Shown piece after piece: positions 48,815 to 62,414 of a stretch of 64,000 bases of DNA. The first letter of the stretch is position 1, and every line of letters starts with the position of its first letter. A model generated the notes under the pieces. It had not been told where the DNA came from and made no database searches. It saw nothing but the letters and a program-made list of their open reading frames with translations. The DNA is from Acinetobacter piscicola (GTDB lineage: Bacteria; Pseudomonadota; Gammaproteobacteria; Pseudomonadales; Moraxellaceae): contig NZ_CP048659.1 of NCBI RefSeq assembly GCF_015218165.1, positions 3,286,001 to 3,350,000 of the forward strand, in the 5' to 3' direction. Both the position numbers and the translations under genes were made by a program.

Positions 48815-49771
48815 TTAATTCGCAAATAAAATTGGACTATATGAAATTTGTTTTTTACTATTCACCTGAATAAGCTCATATTTCTTTAATAAATATAAAC
48901 TTTCTTCTATTAATGTTTCATCTAAACATTTTTTTAAAATTGTCGTAAAACCGCTTAATGTTTTTGGATAAGGTTTATTCTGTGAATTAAAATAAGTCAC
49001 GAGTTTAAATTGAATTTCAGTTAATCTTTGTTCTAATACTTCAAAATCAGCAGTTTCAGCAGTTTCAGCAGTTTCAGCAGTTTCAGCAGTTTCAGCAGTT
49101 TCAGCAGTTTCAGCAGTTTCAGCAGTTTCAGCAGAAAAATCCTGTACTAATTTCCCTATAATATTTTGAAAATACTGTACTTTATTTTCATTAATTTTAA
49201 TGACTTTTAATTTTTTTAGCTCTTCAATCACTGCTTTTGCAATATCCTCCTCAATTTTTAAATTTGCCTTCAAAGAGTTAATTAATGACTCTACTTTTGC
49301 AGGTTTAGAAAAATTCGATTTGGTCAAATTTTCACAATATTGATAAAGCATTTTATTTAGATTGAATTCAGATTTAATTTCTTGTATCTGTTGATATGCA
49401 ATCAATGGCTTTTCATGGATAATTTTCACATCAAATTGTGCCAATTTAAGCAAATCCACAACATATTCCATTGAATGATCATTGGACATGACGTCAAAAC
49501 AATACTCTTTTGCTTGCATTTGAACGGATAATTGTCCTGCAATAAACGCTAAACCAAAGTCAGCAGCATCTTTGCCTAATTTAGGCATTTTTAAAATTTT
49601 TAATTTTCCATTTATCACAAATGGCGCAAGTTTTACCAATCCATCTAAACTAAAATTCACGGGTGATTTTGCATAAACAAGATAGATTAATTGATATTGA
49701 GATAAATATTTAAGTAGTTCTTTTTCGGTTTTATGTAAATTCTCAATATCAAGTAATAAGATTTTTTTCAT
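48815..49771 (-). CDS. NYN/PIN-like domain protein with winged-helix-like tail and (AET)n repeat
   Basis: The 318-residue protein begins MKKILLLDIENLHK and shows three acidic sites like NYN/PIN ribonucleases: Asp8/Glu10 in LLDIEN, Asp68 and Asp71 in KLGKDAADFGLAFIAG, and Asp98 in MSNDHSMEY. Residues about 135-205 and 240-318 look like two winged-helix or similar helical domains. Between them lies a run of about nine Ala-Glu-Thr units encoded by a 9-base microsatellite. It is a paralogue of the next gene upstream. An RNA-processing or RNA-binding role is inferred; no function is known. Confidence 0.65.
   Translation of the reverse strand: MKKILLLDIENLHKTEKELLKYLSQYQLIYLVYAKSPVNFSLDGLVKLAPFVINGKLKILKMPKLGKDAADFGLAFIAGQLSVQMQAKEYCFDVMSNDHSMEYVVDLLKLAQFDVKIIHEKPLIAYQQIQEIKSEFNLNKMLYQYCENLTKSNFSKPAKVESLINSLKANLKIEEDIAKAVIEELKKLKVIKINENKVQYFQNIIGKLVQDFSAETAETAETAETAETAETAETAETAETADFEVLEQRLTEIQFKLVTYFNSQNKPYPKTLSGFTTILKKCLDETLIEESLYLLKKYELIQVNSKKQISYSPILFAN
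49048..49134. repeat. In-frame 9-base microsatellite (about nine copies)
   Basis: TTTCAGCAG is repeated nine times without interruption, giving (Ala-Glu-Thr)n on the minus strand. Units are multiples of three, so slippage would change length but not frame. Confidence 0.9.
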
Positions 49772-49796: not shown

Positions 49797-50804
49797 TTAA
49801 TTCAAATACATCTCATGACTATAAATCACATCATGCCCATTCCAATAAATATAACCTTTTTCAATCAATTCTTTGAGCAATAAACGCACATCTGCTTGTG
49901 GAAACATTTTTTCCAACAAATCTCGCAGCGCATAAATATCTTTGGGTTTATTGGTTTTTAATTCATTTAATTTTTGAATTACTTCCCACTGAATTGGATC
50001 AATTTTTTCAAAATCTTGATTTAAAAATGTTGTGTCACTTGCTTTATTTTGCTGCTTTTCCAACTCAGAAATCACCTGTTTTGCACCAGCACTGAGTTTT
50101 TCTAAAACAGCATCAATTTCTAATACTTTACGCTCTGAAACCCCATTTTTTTGTTCTAAATCAAGTTGTGACCATTGTTTCAACAATTTTTTGCGAAACC
50201 AAACTTGCTCATCCTGTTTTTTGACTATTTTTAGATTAATTAACATGCCCAATAAATGTTGGGCTTTTTCAGGCACAATCTGTAAACAATTGACAAGGGA
50301 ATTTTTTAATTTTTCAACCGTATTGGGTTTACCTGTCATTTTTGCGACAACATCACAATATTTTTTAATTAACTGCAAAGCAGGCTTTTTTTGAATCGCT
50401 TCAATACTTGGAAGCGTATGTTTTGATGCTTTGGTGGTACTTTCAGGTTCAACTTGAATGAAATGACAACTCAACTCCGAACTACGCAACATATCAATGA
50501 GCATCTGACAAGTTGGCATCGCAGAAATAACTTCAATATGGCTATCTTGCTCAAGTAATGCTAAAAGTTGCCCGACCACCACCGCATATTCATATTCTTT
50601 TTCAGTGGTTTCAGGTACATCTAAAATGATGATTTGCCCACTTGCAATCAGGCTTGCCAACTCCGTTAAATCATCCAGTGCAAACTCAATTTTCCCTGCA
50701 CAATTAAATAGATATAAAGCCGAATAATGTTCCATAATATCCCTTAACATTTTTAATGTTGGCATATTATTTTCAATATCAAGAAGTACGACTTTATTCT
50801 GCAT
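49797..50804 (-). CDS. NYN/PIN-like domain protein, probable pseudo-nuclease paralogue
   Basis: The 335-residue protein starts MQNKVVLLDIENNMPTLKML and follows the same layout as its downstream neighbour: LLDIEN, FALDDLTELASLIASGQIII (compare FSLDGLVKLAPFVINGKLKI), VVVGQLLALL, then two helical domains. Asp9 and Glu11 are kept, but the second site reads EKEYEYAVVVG and the third reads SAMPTCQM, so the acidic residues at both places are lost or shifted. It is probably a catalytically dead partner or a binding protein. It starts 26 bp before the neighbour. Confidence 0.62.
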   Translation of the reverse strand: MQNKVVLLDIENNMPTLKMLRDIMEHYSALYLFNCAGKIEFALDDLTELASLIASGQIIILDVPETTEKEYEYAVVVGQLLALLEQDSHIEVISAMPTCQMLIDMLRSSELSCHFIQVEPESTTKASKHTLPSIEAIQKKPALQLIKKYCDVVAKMTGKPNTVEKLKNSLVNCLQIVPEKAQHLLGMLINLKIVKKQDEQVWFRKKLLKQWSQLDLEQKNGVSERKVLEIDAVLEKLSAGAKQVISELEKQQNKASDTTFLNQDFEKIDPIQWEVIQKLNELKTNKPKDIYALRDLLEKMFPQADVRLLLKELIEKGYIYWNGHDVIYSHEMYLN

Positions 50805-53390: not shown

Positions 53391-53407
53391 TTGGCATCTA
53401 TTTTGCA
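53391..53407 (+). promoter_or_regulatory. Sigma-54 (-24/-12) type promoter
   Basis: TTGGCATCTATTTTGCA matches the consensus TGGCAC-N5-TTGCA, with GG at 53393-53394 and GC at 53405-53406 exactly 10 bases apart. It ends about 43 bp before the permease start, leaving room for a short leader. Use by RpoN is an inference. Confidence 0.75.
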
Positions 53408-53450
53408 AAACACCAGACAAACACAAAATTAAAATACAGGAGTGTTTGCG

Positions 53451-55061
53451 ATGCATAACCCATCTACAACAGATACTTTTGAGGATAAAGCCACTTCCTC
53501 AGCTGCAAATGAAACATTAGAAGATTACACATTACGTTATGCACCACATAGTTTTCGTCGTTGGAGCCCTAAAGTTGTTGCCATTACCGCATTAGGCGGC
53601 ATTGCCTATTTAGCTGATTTTTCAATTGGCGCAAGTATTGGTATGACGTATGGTACAACCAATGCTGTCATGTCGATCCTCTTCGCTGCGATCATTATTT
53701 TCCTGACAGGTATTCCACTTGCCTATTATGCTGCTCGCTACAATATTGATTTAGATTTGATTACTCGTGGCGCAGGCTTTGGCTATATGGGTTCAGTGTT
53801 AACCAGTATTATTTTTGCGAGTTTTACCTTTATTTTCTTTGCGCTTGAAGGTTCAATCATGGCGCAAGGTTTACTGCTCGGGCTTGGTATTCCGCTCTGG
53901 GCTGGTTATCTGATTTCCACAGTGATGGTCATTCCCCTTGTGATTTATGGCATGAAAGCACTGAGTAAATTACAAGTATGGACCACGCCGATTTGGTTAA
54001 TTTTGATGATTGGACCTGTGGCATATTTAATTCATAAAGAACCGAGTTTGGTCAGCTCTTTTGCCACCTATACAGGTACAAGCGGCTATGCACCTATGGA
54101 CATGGCAGCGATTATGCTAGGTGCAGGGATTTGTTTGTCGCTGATTATGCAAATTGGTGAGCAAATTGATTATTTGCGCTTTATGCCTGCAAAAACCAAA
54201 GAAAATAGCAAATCTTGGTGGATTGCAGTCATCTCAGCAGGTCCAGGTTGGGTCATTTTGGGTGCAATTAAACAAATCATTGGTGCATTTTTAGGTTTTT
54301 ATTTACTGACAAAAATTCCAGGTGTCAATGCAACTGAGCCTGTACAACAGTTCAATGCCGCTTTCCATGACATGTTACCGGGTTGGTTGGCGCTGTCTTT
54401 AGCCGTGATTTTAGTGGTGATTTCACAAATTAAAATTAATGTCACCAATGCTTATTCGGGTTCTTTGGCTTGGACGAGTGCGTATACCCGTATCAGCAAA
54501 CATTATCCGGGACGCATTGTTTTTGTCATTGTTAATCTTGTCATTGCCCTTGCATTGATGGAAGGCAATATGTTTGCGGTCTTAGGTAAAATTTTAGGTT
54601 TCTATTCTAACTTTGCCATTGCTTGGGTGGTTGTAGTTGCAACGGATATTGCCATCAATAAATATGTGCTTAAGCTGTCACCGAAAGAGCCTGAATATCG
54701 TCGTGACATGTTGTATAACGTCAACCCTGTTGGAATGGTTTCTTTCCTTGCGGCTGCGGGTCTGTCCATTGCTGCATTCTTTGGCTTGTTTGGGGATTTC
54801 CTTGCTGCCTATTCTCCATTGATTGCCTTGGTTGTGGCATTTGTACTGACTCCTGTGATGGGCTTAATCACCCAAGGGAAATATTATATTAAGTCTGAAA
54901 ATGATGGCATCAAAGAGCCTCGTTATGATGCTGAAGGTACACCTGTTGCGACGGTTTATCATTGTGTATCATGTCATGAAGATTATGAACGTCCTGATAT
55001 TATGTATTCACATCAACATAATGGCGTGATCTGTTCATTGTGCAAAACCATGGAAAAATAA
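53451..55061 (+). CDS. NCS1-family nucleobase/related permease with zinc-ribbon-like tail
   Basis: The 536-residue protein is a twelve-helix NCS1 transporter. FSIGASIGMTYGTTNAVMSI, RYNIDLDLITRGAGFGYMG, GEQIDYLRFMP and INVTNAYSGSLAWTSAYTR are characteristic of the cytosine/purine/allantoin group. The last 35 residues are unusual: Cys505 and Cys508 (CVSC), His509, then Cys528 and Cys531 (CSLC), which could bind zinc. The substrate is uncertain; cytosine, purines, allantoin or similar nitrogen sources are candidates, and the position beside urease and a sigma-54 promoter fits nitrogen scavenging. AGGAG lies 8 bases before the ATG at 53451. Confidence 0.8.
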   Translation: MHNPSTTDTFEDKATSSAANETLEDYTLRYAPHSFRRWSPKVVAITALGGIAYLADFSIGASIGMTYGTTNAVMSILFAAIIIFLTGIPLAYYAARYNIDLDLITRGAGFGYMGSVLTSIIFASFTFIFFALEGSIMAQGLLLGLGIPLWAGYLISTVMVIPLVIYGMKALSKLQVWTTPIWLILMIGPVAYLIHKEPSLVSSFATYTGTSGYAPMDMAAIMLGAGICLSLIMQIGEQIDYLRFMPAKTKENSKSWWIAVISAGPGWVILGAIKQIIGAFLGFYLLTKIPGVNATEPVQQFNAAFHDMLPGWLALSLAVILVVISQIKINVTNAYSGSLAWTSAYTRISKHYPGRIVFVIVNLVIALALMEGNMFAVLGKILGFYSNFAIAWVVVVATDIAINKYVLKLSPKEPEYRRDMLYNVNPVGMVSFLAAAGLSIAAFFGLFGDFLAAYSPLIALVVAFVLTPVMGLITQGKYYIKSENDGIKEPRYDAEGTPVATVYHCVSCHEDYERPDIMYSHQHNGVICSLCKTMEK

Positions 55062-55094
55062 TAAAACTAAAATAAAAATAGTTTGGTTAAATTT

Positions 55095-55122
55095 AAGGCT
55101 TCATTTGAAGCCTTATTTTTTG
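55095..55122 (+). terminator. Terminator after the NCS1 permease
   Basis: AAGGCTTC and GAAGCCTT form an 8-bp stem around ATTT, followed by ATTTTTTG. Confidence 0.88.
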
Positions 55123-55274
55123 TGTTTTTTTAAAATAAAGTACTTACAAAAGTAAAAACAAACCAAGATTGATAGAAAAATTAATATTGAAAGTTCCTTG
55201 TCTTATGCCATATATGAATCAGGGATGAGGAGTAATTTCAGTGAGTTAAGTATTTTTATATAAAACGATCAGAT

Positions 55275-55308
55275 ACAAAAAATCCCACATTTTCATGCAG
55301 GATTTTTT
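55275..55308 (-). terminator. Terminator of the urease operon
   Basis: On the minus strand AAAAAATCC... and ...GGATTTTTT pair (with a bulge around GCATG/GTG) and end in a run of T, 16 bp beyond the ureJ stop. Confidence 0.7.
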
Positions 55309-55323
55309 GAAATGTTCTATACA

Positions 55324-55902
55324 TTAAGCCAAAGTAATCAACGCAACAAAGGCAGCAAAAACACCCACGATTTTTTTACCATAAGGCATGTAGTCCGCAA
55401 TCACTTTCCCTAACAGTAGACCCACAGCATAAATCAGTGACATTGCCACCACCATACCTGTAACCAAGCCTACGACATGCCCTGCACCACCCAGTTCAGC
55501 ACCATGCGCAACACCATGAAAAGTAACCAACATCGCCGTTGCCACAGGTAAAATCATGTTTGACTTCGACCATAATGCAATCGCAACCACCATCAGCGAA
55601 GCCACAATGCCATATTCTGCAAATGCTTCAGGTATCCAATGTGCCACCCCAATTACAAAGCCACCAACCAAAGCCAAGACCATACCAATCATGCCGATCA
55701 CATTCCATTTTTTAGCGGCTGAATAAAATAACACCCCCAAAGCAATCGCCATCATCATATGGTCAAGTCCTGTGAATGGGTGTGTAAATCCTGCTGCAAA
55801 ACCTGAGTGAGTTTGATCATGCCCGGGATGTGCCATTGCAAAAACAGGACTCAAGGATAAGAAAAATAAAACACTTTTTTGCCCAAATTTTGTCATTTTC
55901 AT
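55324..55902 (-). CDS. ureJ: HupE/UreJ-family nickel transporter-like protein
   Basis: The 192-residue protein has a signal-like first helix, then HPGHDQTHSGFAAGFTHPFTGLDHMMMAIALG, with the His/Asp cluster typical of HupE/UreJ, and about six helices in all; TFHGVAHGAELGG is a second His-rich motif. It probably passes nickel into the cell for UreC. It is the last gene of the cluster, directly after ureG with 6 bp between. Confidence 0.92.
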   Translation of the reverse strand: MKMTKFGQKSVLFFLSLSPVFAMAHPGHDQTHSGFAAGFTHPFTGLDHMMMAIALGVLFYSAAKKWNVIGMIGMVLALVGGFVIGVAHWIPEAFAEYGIVASLMVVAIALWSKSNMILPVATAMLVTFHGVAHGAELGGAGHVVGLVTGMVVAMSLIYAVGLLLGKVIADYMPYGKKIVGVFAAFVALITLA

Positions 55903-55908
55903 CGCTCC

Positions 55909-56523
55909 TCAGGCTTTAAATAAACCTTGTTTTTCAATAAATAAAATAATTTCAGCCAAACCAGCTTCAGTTTTCATATTGGAAAATAAAAAGGGTTTAT
56001 CACCACGCATGCGTTTTGCATCCTGATCCATCACCTCAAGATTTGCCCCGACCATTGGCGCTAAATCTGTCTTGTTAATAATCAATAAATCTGACTTGGT
56101 AATACCCGGTCCACCTTTACGGGGAATCTTTTCCCCCCCTGCAACATCAATCACATAAAGGGTTAAATCGGATAGCTCAGGGCTAAAGGTTGCAGCTAAA
56201 TTATCACCACCACTTTCAATGATAATCAGTTCCAAACCCTCAAACTTTTCACATAAATCATCAATTGCAGCAAGGTTAATTGAAGCATCCTCACGAATCG
56301 CAGTATGTGGACAACCACCTGTTTCCACCCCCACAATACGATCAGGTGACATGGCTTCATTGCGGGTTAAAAAGTTAGAATCTTCTTTGGTATAAATATC
56401 ATTGGTGACCACTGCCATATTATATTTGTCACGTAATGCACGACATAAATTTAAGGTCAATGCCGTTTTACCTGATCCAACAGGACCACCAATTCCAACA
56501 CGTAATGGACTACGTTCTGACAT
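55909..56523 (-). CDS. ureG: Urease accessory GTPase UreG
   Basis: UreG supplies GTP-driven nickel delivery to the urease apoprotein with UreD, UreF and UreE. The P-loop is [19 protein letters not shown], and the nickel-site CPH is in [32 protein letters not shown] and NKTDLAP complete the GTPase pattern. The 204-residue length is standard. It follows ureF by 48 bp. Confidence 0.98.
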
Positions 56524-56571
56524 GATTTCTTCCTTTATTTTGTGTGAATACTAAAGTTAAATGTTGTTAAT

Positions 56572-57234
56572 TTAAGAACGGAATAATCTTGAATATTGCG
56601 TTTCATGTTGCATACTGAGCATGGCGTACTGTGGCAAACTGCTACTCATTTCATCATCCTGTAGCGCCATCGCCTTCTCTACCGCAGCAGGAACCAAGCC
56701 ATGCAAATGCCATAAAATCCGTTGACCGCTCATTTGACCCAATGGAATGGTTTTAACCGCAGCCAAGACCTGATTTTCTAAAACAGAAAAACTATAAGCA
56801 GTTAAAACATCCGCCTCGTTTAAGCCTAGACGACCACAGAGCTGTGCATAGACAGGCACAAAACCAAACTGTTTTTTCACCGTGACATCAAGTAAAAGGA
56901 CATCTTTGATCCATGCATTTAAGGAAAATGCCAACTGTTGTGACTCAGCCAAGAGTTCCTTACTTTCACGACTCGCCCGATATAAATGCGCCCAATATAA
57001 AAATTCATTTTCCTGTGAAAAATGCTGCATTAACCGTTGCAAAATAGGCAGCTCGAAGCGAAGCAACAGCATTTCCAAAACATCTTCAAAATAGGCTTTG
57101 CTGCTGTTTTCATCATGGATCAAGCCTTTTTCAATCGCACTTTCCACACCTTGTGAATAACAATAAGCACCCACAGGCAAAGCCGTTGAAGAAAGCGTTA
57201 AGAGCTTGAGCAGTTGCGCGGCATTAATGGACAT
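56572..57234 (-). CDS. ureF: Urease accessory protein UreF
   Basis: UreF bridges UreD and UreG in the metal-loading complex. The protein (220 residues) starts [20 protein letters not shown] and has [19 protein letters not shown] and the conserved C-terminal [16 protein letters not shown]. It overlaps the 3' end of ureE by 11 bp. Confidence 0.95.
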
Positions 57235-57730
57235 GGTGTAAAGACTTGATTGGGCTTAAAGGCTTCGTTTCTGCTTTCGATAAACGCTCATGACTGTGTG
57301 CATGTTGCGCATAAGCACCACTTTCAGGTTCAAAGGGGTGATCAACCTCCGTGACAACCAAACCTAAGCCCTGCACCATTTCCGCAAGCACATGATCAGG
57401 CTCAAAATACAAAGCGGTCGGGGTCAACATCAGTGGCACATGCCGATTGCCCAAGTGATATGCCGCTTTTAACAGCTCAAATTCAGTCTTTGCCGTAACT
57501 TGCATCAAATGTTCCGCTTTGGCATTGACCTTTAAAATCTCGCCTTGCTCGGTCGCAATCAATGCGCCACTTCTTAAAATACCTGTACGTGGTAAATCCA
57601 CGCCTATATCATCGCCATTGTCCAAAGTGGCACGAAAACGACTTTTTTGACGGGTATCAAAAGTCAGAGCAACCGTTTCAAATGCCTCTTCAGTTTCCGT
57701 CTGCTCCAATCGTTGGGTAAATATTTTCAT
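57224..57730 (-). CDS. ureE: Urease accessory protein UreE
   Basis: UreE is the nickel chaperone of the maturation complex. The 168-residue product has the UreE N-terminal peptide-binding domain ([20 protein letters not shown]) and the metal-binding second domain with [11 protein letters not shown]. The His-containing tail [11 protein letters not shown], then HHVH at the end, is moderately His-rich. I chose the second of two nearby ATGs, with TAGGA 6 bases upstream. It overlaps ureF by 11 bp. Confidence 0.95.
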
Positions 57731-57737
57731 CAGCATC

Positions 57738-58319
57738 CTACTTATAAATAAAAAATTCTGTATTTTTAATCGGTTGATGCAACATATTGTGGCGAAATGC
57801 TCGCATTAACTCGGCTGAAACTGCCTGTGGTTCAGTCATTAACATTTGAAATAACTGTAAAAATTGACCATGACTAAAAATCATCAAGTTTTGATCTAAA
57901 TAACGTTGTTGTTCTCGATCAAGAAATGTGAATAAAGCTTCAACTCTTTGATATAAATCTCGAAAAGATTCAGCATCCGAAGCATCGACATAATCTACAT
58001 CCTCCAACTGCCAATAGGCATCTACCCACGGTTTACGCTGCGATAAAGTTGTACCTTTGCATTTCACATCGGAAAGATAAGAGAATTCCTCTATCGGCAA
58101 AATTTCGGCACTTAATTGATCCCGATCAAGCAAGGGTTGAGCAGTTTGTAAGGTTCTTAAAAAGGGTGAAATAATGACATGATCAGCCTTCGGCAACTGT
58201 GCTAGAAGCTGTCGTGCCTGTAAATGCCCCAATTCAGTCAGTGCAATATTTGCATGTGATTCTGTTTGACCATCAACATTTCCCACACTTTCTGCATGTC
58301 GAATCAAATAAATTGCCAT
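57738..58319 (-). CDS. Histidine phosphatase family protein inside the urease operon
   Basis: The 193-residue protein has the family's phosphohistidine motif [10 protein letters not shown] near the N-terminus and the second catalytic His in [11 protein letters not shown] near residue 151. Such enzymes dephosphorylate sugar phosphates, nucleotides or proteins; the substrate is unknown. It lies between ureC (12 bp) and ureE (7 bp), so is fully embedded in the operon. The ATG chosen has AAGGGACGGG upstream. Confidence 0.88.
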
Positions 58320-58331
58320 CAAACCCGTCCC

Positions 58332-60032
58332 TTAAAATAAAAAATAGCGTTGTGCCATCGGTAACACTTCGGCAGGTTCACAGGTCAAATGTACCCCATC
58401 AGCTTTCACTTCATAAGTTTCAGGATGAACCTCCATCACAGGACAATAATCATTGTGCTTCATGTCCTTTTTGGTGATTTTTCGCGTATTTTTTGATGGG
58501 GAAATAATCTTTTTCAGCTGTAATTTTTCCGCCACACCTGCATCAATTGCCACTTGTGAAAGAAAGGTAATACAGGTGTTATGTACACCACGCGGAAAAG
58601 CCCCAAACATTGGACGATAATGCACAGGTTGAGGGGTTGGAATCGACGCATTAATATCGCCCATTGGTGCGGCTGCAATCATGCCACCTTTAATGATCAT
58701 GGACGGTTTAACGCCAAAAAATGCAGGCTTCCACAACACCAAATCTGCCAATTTTCCTTCTTCAACGGAACCGACTTCATGGCTTAAACCATGGGTAATG
58801 GCAGGGTTAATGGTATATTTGGCGATATAACGCTTCACCCGTTGATTATCACAATGCGGTGTATCCCCTTGTAATGCGCCACGTTGCACTTTCATTTTAT
58901 GGGCAGTTTGCCACGTTCGAATGATCACTTCACCGACCCGTCCCATCGCTTGCGAATCCGATGACATCATCGAAATTGCACCTAAGTCTTGTAAAATATC
59001 TTCTGCGGCAATGGTTTCACGGCGAATTCGACTTTCAGCAAATGCCACATCTTCGGCAATTGCAGGGTCTAAATGGTGACAAACCATCAGCATATCCAAA
59101 TGCTCATCAATGGTATTGACCGTATAAGGGCGGGTTGGATTGGTTGAAGATGGCAATACATTGTCCTGACCAATCGCTTTTAAAATATCAGGGGCATGTC
59201 CACCACCTGCGCCCTCAGTATGGTAGGTGTGAATGGTTCTATTTTTAAATGCAGCAAGGGTTTCTTCCAAAAAACCACTTTCATTTAAAGTGTCGGTATG
59301 AATCGCCACTTGTACATCATATTCATCTGCAACACTCAAACAATTGTCAATTGCTGCAGGTGTCGAGCCCCAATCTTCATGCAGTTTAAGCCCGACCACC
59401 CCTGCTTTGATTTGTTCTGCAATCGGTTCAGGTTGACTCAGATTTCCTTTACCCAATAGCCCGATATTCATCGGCAAATCATCAATCGCTTGTAGCATGG
59501 TGGAAATGTGCCAAGGACCCGGAGTAACCGTAGTTGCCGATGTCCCTGCCGCAGGACCTGTTCCGCCACCAATCATGGTCGTGGTTCCTGCCATCAATGC
59601 GGTTTCTACTTGTTGTGGGCAAATCCAATGGATATGGGTATCAATTGCCCCTGCGGTTAAAATCTGCCCTTCACCTGCAATGACTTCGGTTGCCGCACCT
59701 AAAGGAATGGTGATATTTGGCTGAATATCAGGATTGCCTGCTTTACCAATTTTCCAAATTCGCCCATTTTTCAGACCAACATCGGCTTTGATAATGCCCC
59801 ACCAATCCACAATCAACGCATTGGTAATGACGGTATCTGCAACTTCATCTGCCAAAAGTTGTGACTGTCCCATGCCATCACGGATGACCTTCCCACCACC
59901 AAATTTAACTTCTTCGCCGTAAGTGGTCAGGTCTTGTTCCACTTGTATAAATAACTCGGTATCCGCAAGGCGAACACGATCTCCAACCGTAGGACCAAAC
60001 ATTTCTGCATAAGCACGACGTGATATTTTCAT
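58332..60032 (-). CDS. ureC: Urease subunit alpha (catalytic)
   Basis: UreC contains the dinuclear nickel site. The 566-residue protein shows [17 protein letters not shown] for two His ligands, [12 protein letters not shown] for the carbamylated Lys, and the later His ligands in [12 protein letters not shown] and [15 protein letters not shown]. The mobile flap [20 protein letters not shown] and the C-terminal [12 protein letters not shown] are complete. Length and motif order are standard, so it should be active. Confidence 0.98.
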
Positions 60033-60065
60033 GGTTGAATACCTTAATTTCGTGGATATTTTAAA

Positions 60066-60389
60066 TTATGTATCTGACGCATCATCAAGTTTTCCCATGA
60101 CTCGTCCTGCAAAACCATACACTTCACGCTTGCCTGCCAATGCCACCAATTCAATACGACGACTTTGCCCCGGCTCAAAACGAATGGCTGTCCCTGCCGC
60201 AATATTGAGGCGATAACCTTTGGTTTGCTCGCGGTCAAACTGCAAAGCATCATTGGCTTCATAAAAATGAAAATGCGAACCCACTTGAATCGGGCGATCT
60301 CCCATATTTGCAACATTGATGCTTAAGGTCTTGCGTCCTACATTGAGTTCAATCTCTGCTTCAGGGGTAATCACTTCACCGGGAATCAT
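60066..60389 (-). CDS. ureB: Urease subunit beta
   Basis: The 107-residue protein starts [20 protein letters not shown] and contains [16 protein letters not shown] and [16 protein letters not shown], typical of the beta chain of the three-chain enzyme. It is separated by 33 bp from ureC and 13 bp from ureA. Confidence 0.97.
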
Positions 60390-60402
60390 GCTTTGCTCCT
60401 TA

Positions 60403-60705
60403 TTACAGAATGGGTTGATGAACCGTCACCAACTTTGAACCATCAGGAAAAGTGGCTTCAACCTGAACCTCAGCAATCATGTCCGCCACGCCATCCATCA
60501 CATCATCTTGTGTGAGTAGTGTGGTGCCGTAATGCATGAGTTCACTGACGGTCATCCCATCACGTGCACCTTCCAACAATGCTGCAGAAATAAATGCAAT
60601 CGCTTCAGGATAATTGAGTTTTAAACCGCGCGCCTTGCGACGCTCTGCCACCAACCCTGCGGTAAAAATCAATAATTTGTCTTTTTCTGTGGGATTAAGT
60701 TCCAT
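60403..60705 (-). CDS. ureA: Urease subunit gamma
   Basis: The 100-residue gamma chain reads [20 protein letters not shown] and contains [31 protein letters not shown] and the terminal [15 protein letters not shown] chose the ATG at 60705; a start ten codons upstream would add non-family residues. Its upstream neighbour is the Sel1-like gene rather than ureD. Confidence 0.96.
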
Positions 60706-60752
60706 AACATTTTCCTGTTTTTTTAATTCATGCAAAAATCGTGCTCATTTTT

Positions 60753-61376
60753 CTAATCACGATGATCTAAAATATAACGCTTGAGTTCTAAACCCTGTGT
60801 ACAGGCAGGATCTGACTTGCCGTAAACACAACTCATAATCAGCGCATCTAACGCTTTATCATAGCTTTCTTTCGAGTCATCATTCTTAATTAACTCAGAT
60901 GCATACATTGTGCAGCCCCAAGGGTCATTCCAACGGCATGATTTTTCAAATGTCCTTGTAATACATTGTTTTCGCTCTAAACTTAATGAGTCCATAAACG
61001 TCATTGCACCCGCTGCTCGATTGGTACATGCCGATGCGACACCTAATTCACAGCCTCTTTGAAATAATTGCTCAGCAGCTTGTACTTGATGCGCTTGCTG
61101 TAAACTCAATGCTGTAAAATAACAAGCATATCCTTGATCATGCTCACATTTTTTATAACATGCTAAAGTGTTTTTCTGACAATATGCAGCCAAAATAGTA
61201 TCATCTTGTAAGAATTTGGCTTTTTTATTGGGTGATGTATCCGCTGGACATCGCTCTAAATTATTTATAAATATCGGATTTTTTGACATACCTTGCTTGA
61301 TTTCGAAAATGTCATTTTCAGGCATCGCATAACAGAACAAAGGTATTAAGCAACAGAATAATATTAATATTTTCAT
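60753..61376 (-). CDS. Exported Cys-rich Sel1-like repeat protein inside the urease operon
   Basis: A signal peptide (ILILFCCLIPLFCYA, cleaved near residue 17) precedes about 190 residues with a regularly spaced Cys pattern: CPADTSPNKKA, YCQKNTLACYKKCEHDQGYACY, RGCELGVASACTN and SCVYGKSDPACTQG. Each Cys pair is about 8 apart, as in Sel1-like secreted repeat proteins with disulfides. It is therefore a periplasmic binding/scaffold-type protein of unknown function. It lies between ureD and ureA, splitting the usual ureDABC order. Confidence 0.78.
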   Translation of the reverse strand: MKILILFCCLIPLFCYAMPENDIFEIKQGMSKNPIFINNLERCPADTSPNKKAKFLQDDTILAAYCQKNTLACYKKCEHDQGYACYFTALSLQQAHQVQAAEQLFQRGCELGVASACTNRAAGAMTFMDSLSLERKQCITRTFEKSCRWNDPWGCTMYASELIKNDDSKESYDKALDALIMSCVYGKSDPACTQGLELKRYILDHRD

Positions 61377-61464
61377 TAACTTATCTTTTTAAGGTTGTAT
61401 TTTTTAATCAGTTTATCGAGATATTCATCACATTACCATCTAAAAACTAAATCATATTTAAAAA

Positions 61465-62340
61465 CTAAGTCCGCCAAATTCTTGGAAATTCTTCATCTAA
61501 ATCAAACCAATAACGTCTAAGTTTTGCCCGAATGGCTGCAAAAGCGTCATGGCATTGTCGAACATCTTGTCCTAAATAACGTGCACAAATCACATCACCT
61601 AAAATAGTCAAGGTCACAGGCGTATTCATCCGCATAATCAATTCTCGGATCAAATCAAGCTGCTGATCCAAATGCATATTTGCACGAAATTTCTCAGGAG
61701 GCACAGCCCAAAAACTGCCCATCACAGCGCAACTATTCATGCCTAAACAAGAACTCAACCAACGATCATTTCCCACAAAATTCAGTGAATCTGCAACTAA
61801 AAGTGTCTGATTTCGATACAGTTTAAAATGATTTTGATAACGCCCCTGCTCAAATTTTTCTTGTTGTGCCTGACGCCCCAAGACCAACAGATCCCAACCG
61901 ATAAAACTTGCGGTCTGATCTAAATCAACAATCGTTTCAGAATTGGCATTTGCACCATTAAAGAGCATCGTTTCCTGTGGCAACCACTCCAATATCGCAT
62001 GATTTTTGACATGAATATGAATATGCTGAAAGGCAGGCTTACCATTACTTTTGTACCATTTTCCTGCACCGGGCGTTGTAACCACGGCATGGGCATACTG
62101 CTCAGCATCAATTTGAAAACTTAAGTGATCGCCCCCCGCAATGCCTGCGGGTGGATGTACAATAATGGCATGACATACCCCTGTTTTTTCAGGCCACAGC
62201 ATTTTTTGCACCCGAACAGGTCCAAAATGTTTACGGCGATGTAAAATGGTGCGTTTATGATCACCCTTAAAAGATAATTCTAATTTTGCGTACCAATATT
62301 GTGCATTTTCAAATGTATTTTTTAAGTTTGATATATTCAT
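61465..62340 (-). CDS. ureD: Urease accessory protein UreD (UreH)
   Basis: UreD binds apo-urease and guides nickel from UreG/UreF. The 291-residue protein shows [39 protein letters not shown], the conserved [29 protein letters not shown] and [20 protein letters not shown] chose the ATG at 62340 with AGGTG upstream; a GTG two codons earlier overlaps that site. It is the first gene of the cluster, behind a sigma-54-like promoter. Confidence 0.95.
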
Positions 62341-62380
62341 CCACACCTAGCATGTTTTATTTTAGATCCTATTTTATCTA

Positions 62381-62397
62381 AAGCAAAAAACGCACCA
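62381..62397 (-). promoter_or_regulatory. Sigma-54 (-24/-12) type promoter upstream of ureD
   Basis: On the minus strand TGGTGCGTTTTTTGCTT aligns with TGGCACG-N4-TTGCW; GG (62396-62395) and GC (62384-62383) are exactly 10 bases apart. The -12 element lies about 43 bp before the ureD ATG. Function is inferred from geometry. Confidence 0.72.
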
Positions 62398-62414
62398 AAA
62401 CATAACACCTAGAC

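Follow-up and report, generated by a model that had tools for sequence, protein, structure and literature searches.

Conserved sigma-54-type sites before the urease operon and an NCS1-fold permease of Acinetobacter point to joint control of urea hydrolysis and probable urea import

Are the urease operon of Acinetobacter piscicola and the permease gene facing it under the control of the same promoter class? We analysed a window of 64,000 nucleotides (assembly GCF_015218165.1, contig NZ_CP048659.1, positions 3,286,001 to 3,350,000), in which the permease gene is convergent with the urease unit (62340 to 55324) on the opposite strand. Each is preceded by a sigma-54-type site (Table 1). The sigma-54 promoter consensus, TGGCACG-N4-TTGCW, has 12 specified letters; both sites agree with 10 of them and have the gap of exactly 10 bases between GG and GC that a preliminary description of this DNA had reported. 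The position given there for the permease site (53391-53407) was right, whereas that for the ureD site (62381-62397) was off by one base. The distance of about 43 bp to the start codon likewise holds for the permease, whereas the ureD site stands 41 bases before the ATG, or 35 bases before an alternative in-frame GTG at 62346.

The occurrence of two such sites had been taken to make chance unlikely, an argument that the counts weaken. In the host genome (4.28 Mb, 11 contigs), the pattern TTGG-N7-TTTGCW had 72 matches, versus 74 for an off-register control with one extra base between the halves, and the window alone contained six GG/GC-core sites scoring at least 10/12. Since matches were as frequent at the wrong spacing, counts alone leave chance open. 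Chance was excluded by the conservation of the GG-N10-GC sites across the urease and permease loci of relatives. A UreD search returned 57 loci, 49 of which were Acinetobacter records (58 and 50 with the window), and the best match among the relatives was from A. sichuanensis (92% identity). The site was present in all 50 Acinetobacter urease loci, before ureD in 32 and before ureE in 18. In the former group (31 fetched loci and the window), a site of at least 8/12 starts 43-71 bases ahead of the aligned ureD start. In the latter, the genes are arranged differently, ureE and ureG preceding ureD, and 18/18 loci carry a 9-11/12 site starting 95-107 bases ahead of the aligned ureE start. The A. 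baylyi ureD site (L036) is TTGGTGCAAAAATTGCA.

The four core columns of the ureD sites were selection criteria, and the weight rests on the remaining columns and on a spacing control: of the 58 loci, 49 had GG-Nk-GC near ureD when k was 10, whereas each of the other spacings (k=6-9, k=11-14) gave 4-15. In 31 distinct ureD contexts, high conservation was restricted to the site itself. The background was 82 of 551 open reading frames (ORFs; at least 200 amino acids (aa), same 49 loci, urease units included) with a site of at least 8/12. For the ureD site, 37 loci contained a scored site, and five of these were left out: L076, which is not Acinetobacter, and L028, L032, L057 and L075, in which we read the site as falling in the end of ureJ and which were counted via their ureE sites. 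In the 31 fetched ureD-site loci, ureD is presumed to be the first urease gene. In the eight non-Acinetobacter urease loci, matches were weaker or elsewhere and were not counted; they included 9/12 at -95 (L076) and 11/12 at -170 (L077/L078) before ureD, and 8/12 and 9/12 at about -150 before ureE (L067/L068).

The permease was present in 44 copies in 43 of 149 genomes of the genus (69-100% identity), a count that leaves out kinase-fused copies at 42-45% identity and a 93-aa fragment in G024 (75% identical; C8:11674-11952). This fragment lies on the same contig as ureC (C8:6840) and may be what remains of a permease that once stood next to urease. No sensor kinase gene adjoins 21 of the copies, and in 20 of these the site scores 10/12 or better; in three genomes (G040, G101, G125) a kinase of the family described below is encoded elsewhere and the permease still has the site. 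Five near-identical Acinetobacter plasmids have a permease site of 10/12. In a genome of another gammaproteobacterial family (G427) the permease site scores 12/12 and ureG is directly upstream of the permease. A Klebsiella pneumoniae 'cytosine permease' (L191:9971-11578), 74% identical to the window permease, directly follows ureG and has a 10/12 site at -50; no sigma-54-like site was found before ureD of that locus. As a positive control, an amtB-like gene that follows P-II in the host genome carries TTGGCATGAAGTTTGCT (11/12) at -57. Taken together, this conservation strongly supports putative sigma-54 promoters on both the permease gene and the urease unit; as promoters, both are further members of the known sigma-54 class.

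The window permease did not match PF02133 at E 0.001 or among the matches listed up to E 10, and a search of its sequence profile against the PDB reached no transporter. The folds closest to its predicted model were those of CodB and Mhp1, clear of the rest, and homologues with 68-74% identity (P0055, P0057, P0064-P0067) carry precomputed PF02133 labels. On the predicted fold and these labels, the permease appears to be an NCS1 transporter. It is only 13-17% identical to CodB (cytosine) and Mhp1 (hydantoin) in those alignments; unlike both, it has an additional tail with cysteine pairs, and its neighbours are urea or amide genes rather than nucleobase genes. The tail cysteines are conserved in a 25-row alignment (C531 in at least 90%), and the tail gave a weak zf-CHY match under the cut-off.

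Most copies examined adjoin genes for urease, urea carboxylase/allophanate hydrolase, formamidase or amidase. The 21 kinase-free copies of the genus adjoin urease in eight cases and urea carboxylase plus allophanate hydrolase in seven, and a formamidase or aliphatic amidase gene adjoins the permease in Moraxella, Tsukamurella, Arthrobacter U41 and Methylovirgula. Among plasmid records with at least 60% identity, 12 of the 17 listed were examined (H1-H3, H11 and H14 were left out; H12 is without annotation), and the annotated stretches had no purine or allantoin gene next to the permease. Urease was encoded in 34 of the 43 permease-bearing genomes versus 31 of the 106 other genomes of the genus. 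Allophanate hydrolase is widespread in the genus (98/149), so its adjacency rather than its presence counts. In the host genome itself, neither UrtA, the sole known urea importer sought, nor (at 1e-60) allophanate hydrolase gave a match. From neighbourhood and co-occurrence, the permease likely imports urea or short amides such as formamide.

The host genome encodes RpoN. The enhancer-binding activator domain had eight matches in it, four of them strong: NtrC (758.3 bits; curated cut-off 620), MobR and RtcR, both over their cut-offs, and a protein that we named PilR-like, which scored below the cut-off of every one of the 25 families shown. NtrB is encoded adjacent to NtrC (328.6 bits; cut-off 240). 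As the sole nitrogen regulator among the four, NtrC is the obvious candidate activator. Scoring against the E. coli consensus of the NtrC box in 71 promoter contexts gave six with 11/14 (1.6 expected), five of them in permease contexts. A de novo search for dyads and 6-mers in 58 clustered contexts returned top dyads that were all A/T. In the -24 part of the ureD sites, including that of the window, mostly TTGGTGCA stands in place of TTGGCACG. TGGTGCA is an NtrC half-site as well, so NtrC might contact the ureD promoter itself. Elsewhere, one of the three exact E. coli-type NtrC boxes of the genome was seen at L149:1501-1515 (G000:C1:3615895-3615909), between an ORF resembling OXA-type beta-lactamases and a divergent porin-like ORF (both judged by eye).

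We propose that RpoN polymerase would transcribe both the urease operon and the permease gene from the conserved sites, most likely when activated by NtrC under nitrogen limitation, and that urea would enter through the permease to be split to ammonia by urease. We give this account as a whole a probability of roughly 0.7. The preliminary description had already suggested a nitrogen-limitation regulon linking import of a nitrogenous compound to urea hydrolysis; the link is supported and can be sharpened to a likely importer of urea or short amides, while the roles of NtrC and nitrogen limitation are still presumed; no clear NtrC box was found. Several observations weigh against the account. 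None of the 71 promoter contexts reached 12/14 for the NtrC box, and the exact box, present at three places in the genome, was found at neither of the two sites, nor at the amtB-like gene or a recognised nitrogen gene. For glnK, no GC-core site was found within 250 bases, which leaves the amtB-like gene as the sole positive control. One of the 21 kinase-free copies (L161, one of two in G140) lacks the permease site, and none was found for the permease of Moraxella osloensis. The urease loci include several near-duplicates of single species, and the genus counts are uncorrected for kinship. Two annotated Actinomycetota homologues of the permease had no urea or amide gene nearby, and relatives are named cytosine, purine(-cytosine) or allantoin permeases in public records.

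These names would fit another substrate: the promoters may be true sigma-54 promoters of a permease carrying a purine, pyrimidine or allantoin breakdown compound, with urease recycling internal urea. Most characterised bacterial NCS1 proteins do carry nitrogen-bearing rings (PMC13390362). We nevertheless regard this as unlikely, though it is the strongest competitor: genes for urea carboxylase and allophanate hydrolase lie next to seven of the genus copies, formamidase or aliphatic amidase genes adjoin the permease in the four further genera named above, and the annotated plasmid stretches offer no purine or allantoin gene beside it. Somewhat less probable still is that PilR-like, MobR, RtcR or an activator that was missed, rather than NtrC, drives the sigma-54 promoters. 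The want of a clear NtrC box would be explained in this way, but MobR and RtcR point by name to phenol degradation and RNA repair, and a site of this kind also precedes the amtB-like gene. It is improbable that the motif before ureD is instead the site of another DNA-binding regulator with the dyad TGCAA-N3-TTGCA: some ureD sites do contain TGCAATTTTTGCA-like dyads (e.g. L025, L027, L036), but in many the dyad is broken while GG-N10-GC is kept, as in TTGGCGTAGTTTTAGCA (L048/L071) and in TTGGCACGATAAATGCT before ureE (L056/L060), and the permease sites share no such dyad. That both motifs are chance matches, as the near-equal genome counts at spacings 10 and 11 would allow, can be dismissed given their retention in every Acinetobacter urease locus and in nearly all kinase-free permease copies against the ORF background.

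In the remaining 23 copies of the genus, a frame of about 1120-1165 aa runs divergently from the permease gene, and its first part shares 42-45% identity with the permease. In the one frame scanned (L168:5735-10155), an NCS1-like part is followed by HisKA, HATPase and receiver domains, and a REC-LuxR regulator comes next; all six other wider stretches examined contain such a regulator too. Upstream of the permease, no core site in these 23 copies scored above 8/12. All 23 have an inverted repeat, TACG-N8-CGTA, in this position; among the 21 other copies it occurs in none near the start and in two far off. The repeat is TACGCAAAATAACGTA with variants, perfect or near-perfect (L129-L146, L150-L154, e.g. 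L134:1364-1379), and is a candidate binding site of the LuxR-type partner. In a quick permease tree, in which some branches were long and support was weak for 23 of the 41 inner ones, the 23 copies form one clade (Shimodaira-Hasegawa-like approximate likelihood ratio test, SH-aLRT, 98) nested among the sigma-54 copies. A single change therefore suffices for the loss of the sigma-54 site, which was probably lost once in the kinase-adjacent clade.

Similar NCS1-fused kinases (L181, L202-L205) adjoin urease in Mitsuaria and G255, and both urtABCDE and formamidase in Paraburkholderia, Chelatococcus and Paracoccus (four of the 12 kinase-type records listed were examined, chosen by us). Because of these neighbours, which suggest such a role, the NCS1 domain of the kinase may sense urea or short amides, and the kinase with its LuxR-type partner likely senses the same kind of substrate as the permease carries. 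Kinases of the CrbS/CbrA type are fused to a transporter-like domain. The frames described here resemble them in uniting a transporter-like domain with HisKA, HATPase and receiver domains beside a LuxR-type regulator, and differ in that the domain is NCS1-like and the neighbours are urease or urt and formamidase genes.

NtrC/RpoN regulons for nitrogen scavenging include glnK-amtB, and the urease of Klebsiella is controlled through NtrC and Nac. The system described here is similar in having sigma-54 sites on nitrogen genes and in the presence of NtrBC and RpoN, and different in the direct sigma-54 sites before urease and permease and in that no clear NtrC box was found. The urea importers UrtABCDE and DUR3 belong to other families than the window permease. 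A further comparison is MetT, an NCS1 transporter of metformin (PMC13390362): here too an NCS1 protein is proposed for a small non-ring nitrogen compound, although its substrate is a biguanide. The differing urease gene orders in Acinetobacter (PMC8472584, where neither 'permease' nor 'promoter' is mentioned) and the part of urea carboxylase in urea use by A. baumannii (PMC5050338) have already been published. Among the literature matches listed, with subscription journals mostly outside the scope, nothing was found on sigma-54 control of Acinetobacter urease, on an NCS1 urea transporter or on an NCS1 urea-sensing kinase.

We hypothesize, at odds slightly better than even, that the widespread NCS1 clade filed as cytosine, purine or allantoin permeases constitutes a new class of bacterial urea or short-amide importers, controlled by RpoN in Acinetobacter and Klebsiella as well as in one or more further families; that its kinase-fused sister clade acts as a membrane sensor of urea or short amides; and that the Acinetobacter importer passed once from RpoN to the sensor. 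In urease-positive bacteria where no known urea importer is found, uptake could be explained by this misnamed clade, whose genes stand next to urease in Acinetobacter and K. pneumoniae. If this holds, the range of NCS1 would extend beyond ring compounds, with metformin as a published exception (PMC13390362). It is predicted that RpoN controls urea uptake and hydrolysis together, and the kinase with the related NCS1 domain is a candidate urea sensor. The promoter comparison documents one switch of the same transporter from global to likely dedicated control.

Table 1. Sites and genes of the permease and urease units in the window.
Feature	Position	Strand	Basis or remark
Sigma-54-type site of the permease, TTGGCATCTATTTTGCA	53391-53407	+	43 bases before ATG at 53451
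NCS1-fold permease, 536 aa, likely urea/short-amide importer	53451-55061	+	ORF, predicted fold, neighbours in relatives
C-terminal tail, cysteine pairs C505/C508 and C528/C531, zinc-ribbon-like	54963-55043	+	Alignment
Sigma-54-type site of the urease unit, TTGGTGCGTTTTTTGCT	62382-62398	-	41 bases before ureD ATG at 62340
ureD	61465-62340	-	By eye and place near ureC in relatives
Gene between ureD and ureA	60753-61376	-	No Pfam or NCBIfam match at E 0.001
ureA (gamma subunit)	60403-60705	-	By eye and gene order; start at inner ATG
ureB (beta subunit)	60066-60389	-	By eye and gene order
ureC (alpha subunit)	58332-60032	-	PF00449 match at 59679-60032
Histidine-phosphatase-family gene between ureC and ureE	57738-58322	-	PF00300
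ureE	57224-57736	-	By eye; matches ureE-placed genes in relatives
ureF	56572-57234	-	PF01730
ureG	55909-56523	-	PF02492 (cobW/UreG)
ureJ/hupE	55324-55902	-	PF04955

The urease unit of the window reads ureD, an unknown gene, ureA, ureB, ureC, the histidine-phosphatase-family gene, ureE, ureF, ureG and ureJ, and contains two extra genes (60753-61376 and 57738-58322). Elsewhere in the window, two adjacent genes of similar look were observed (48815-49771 and 49797-50804); in the first, a PIN7 domain is accompanied by a stretch of AET repeats.

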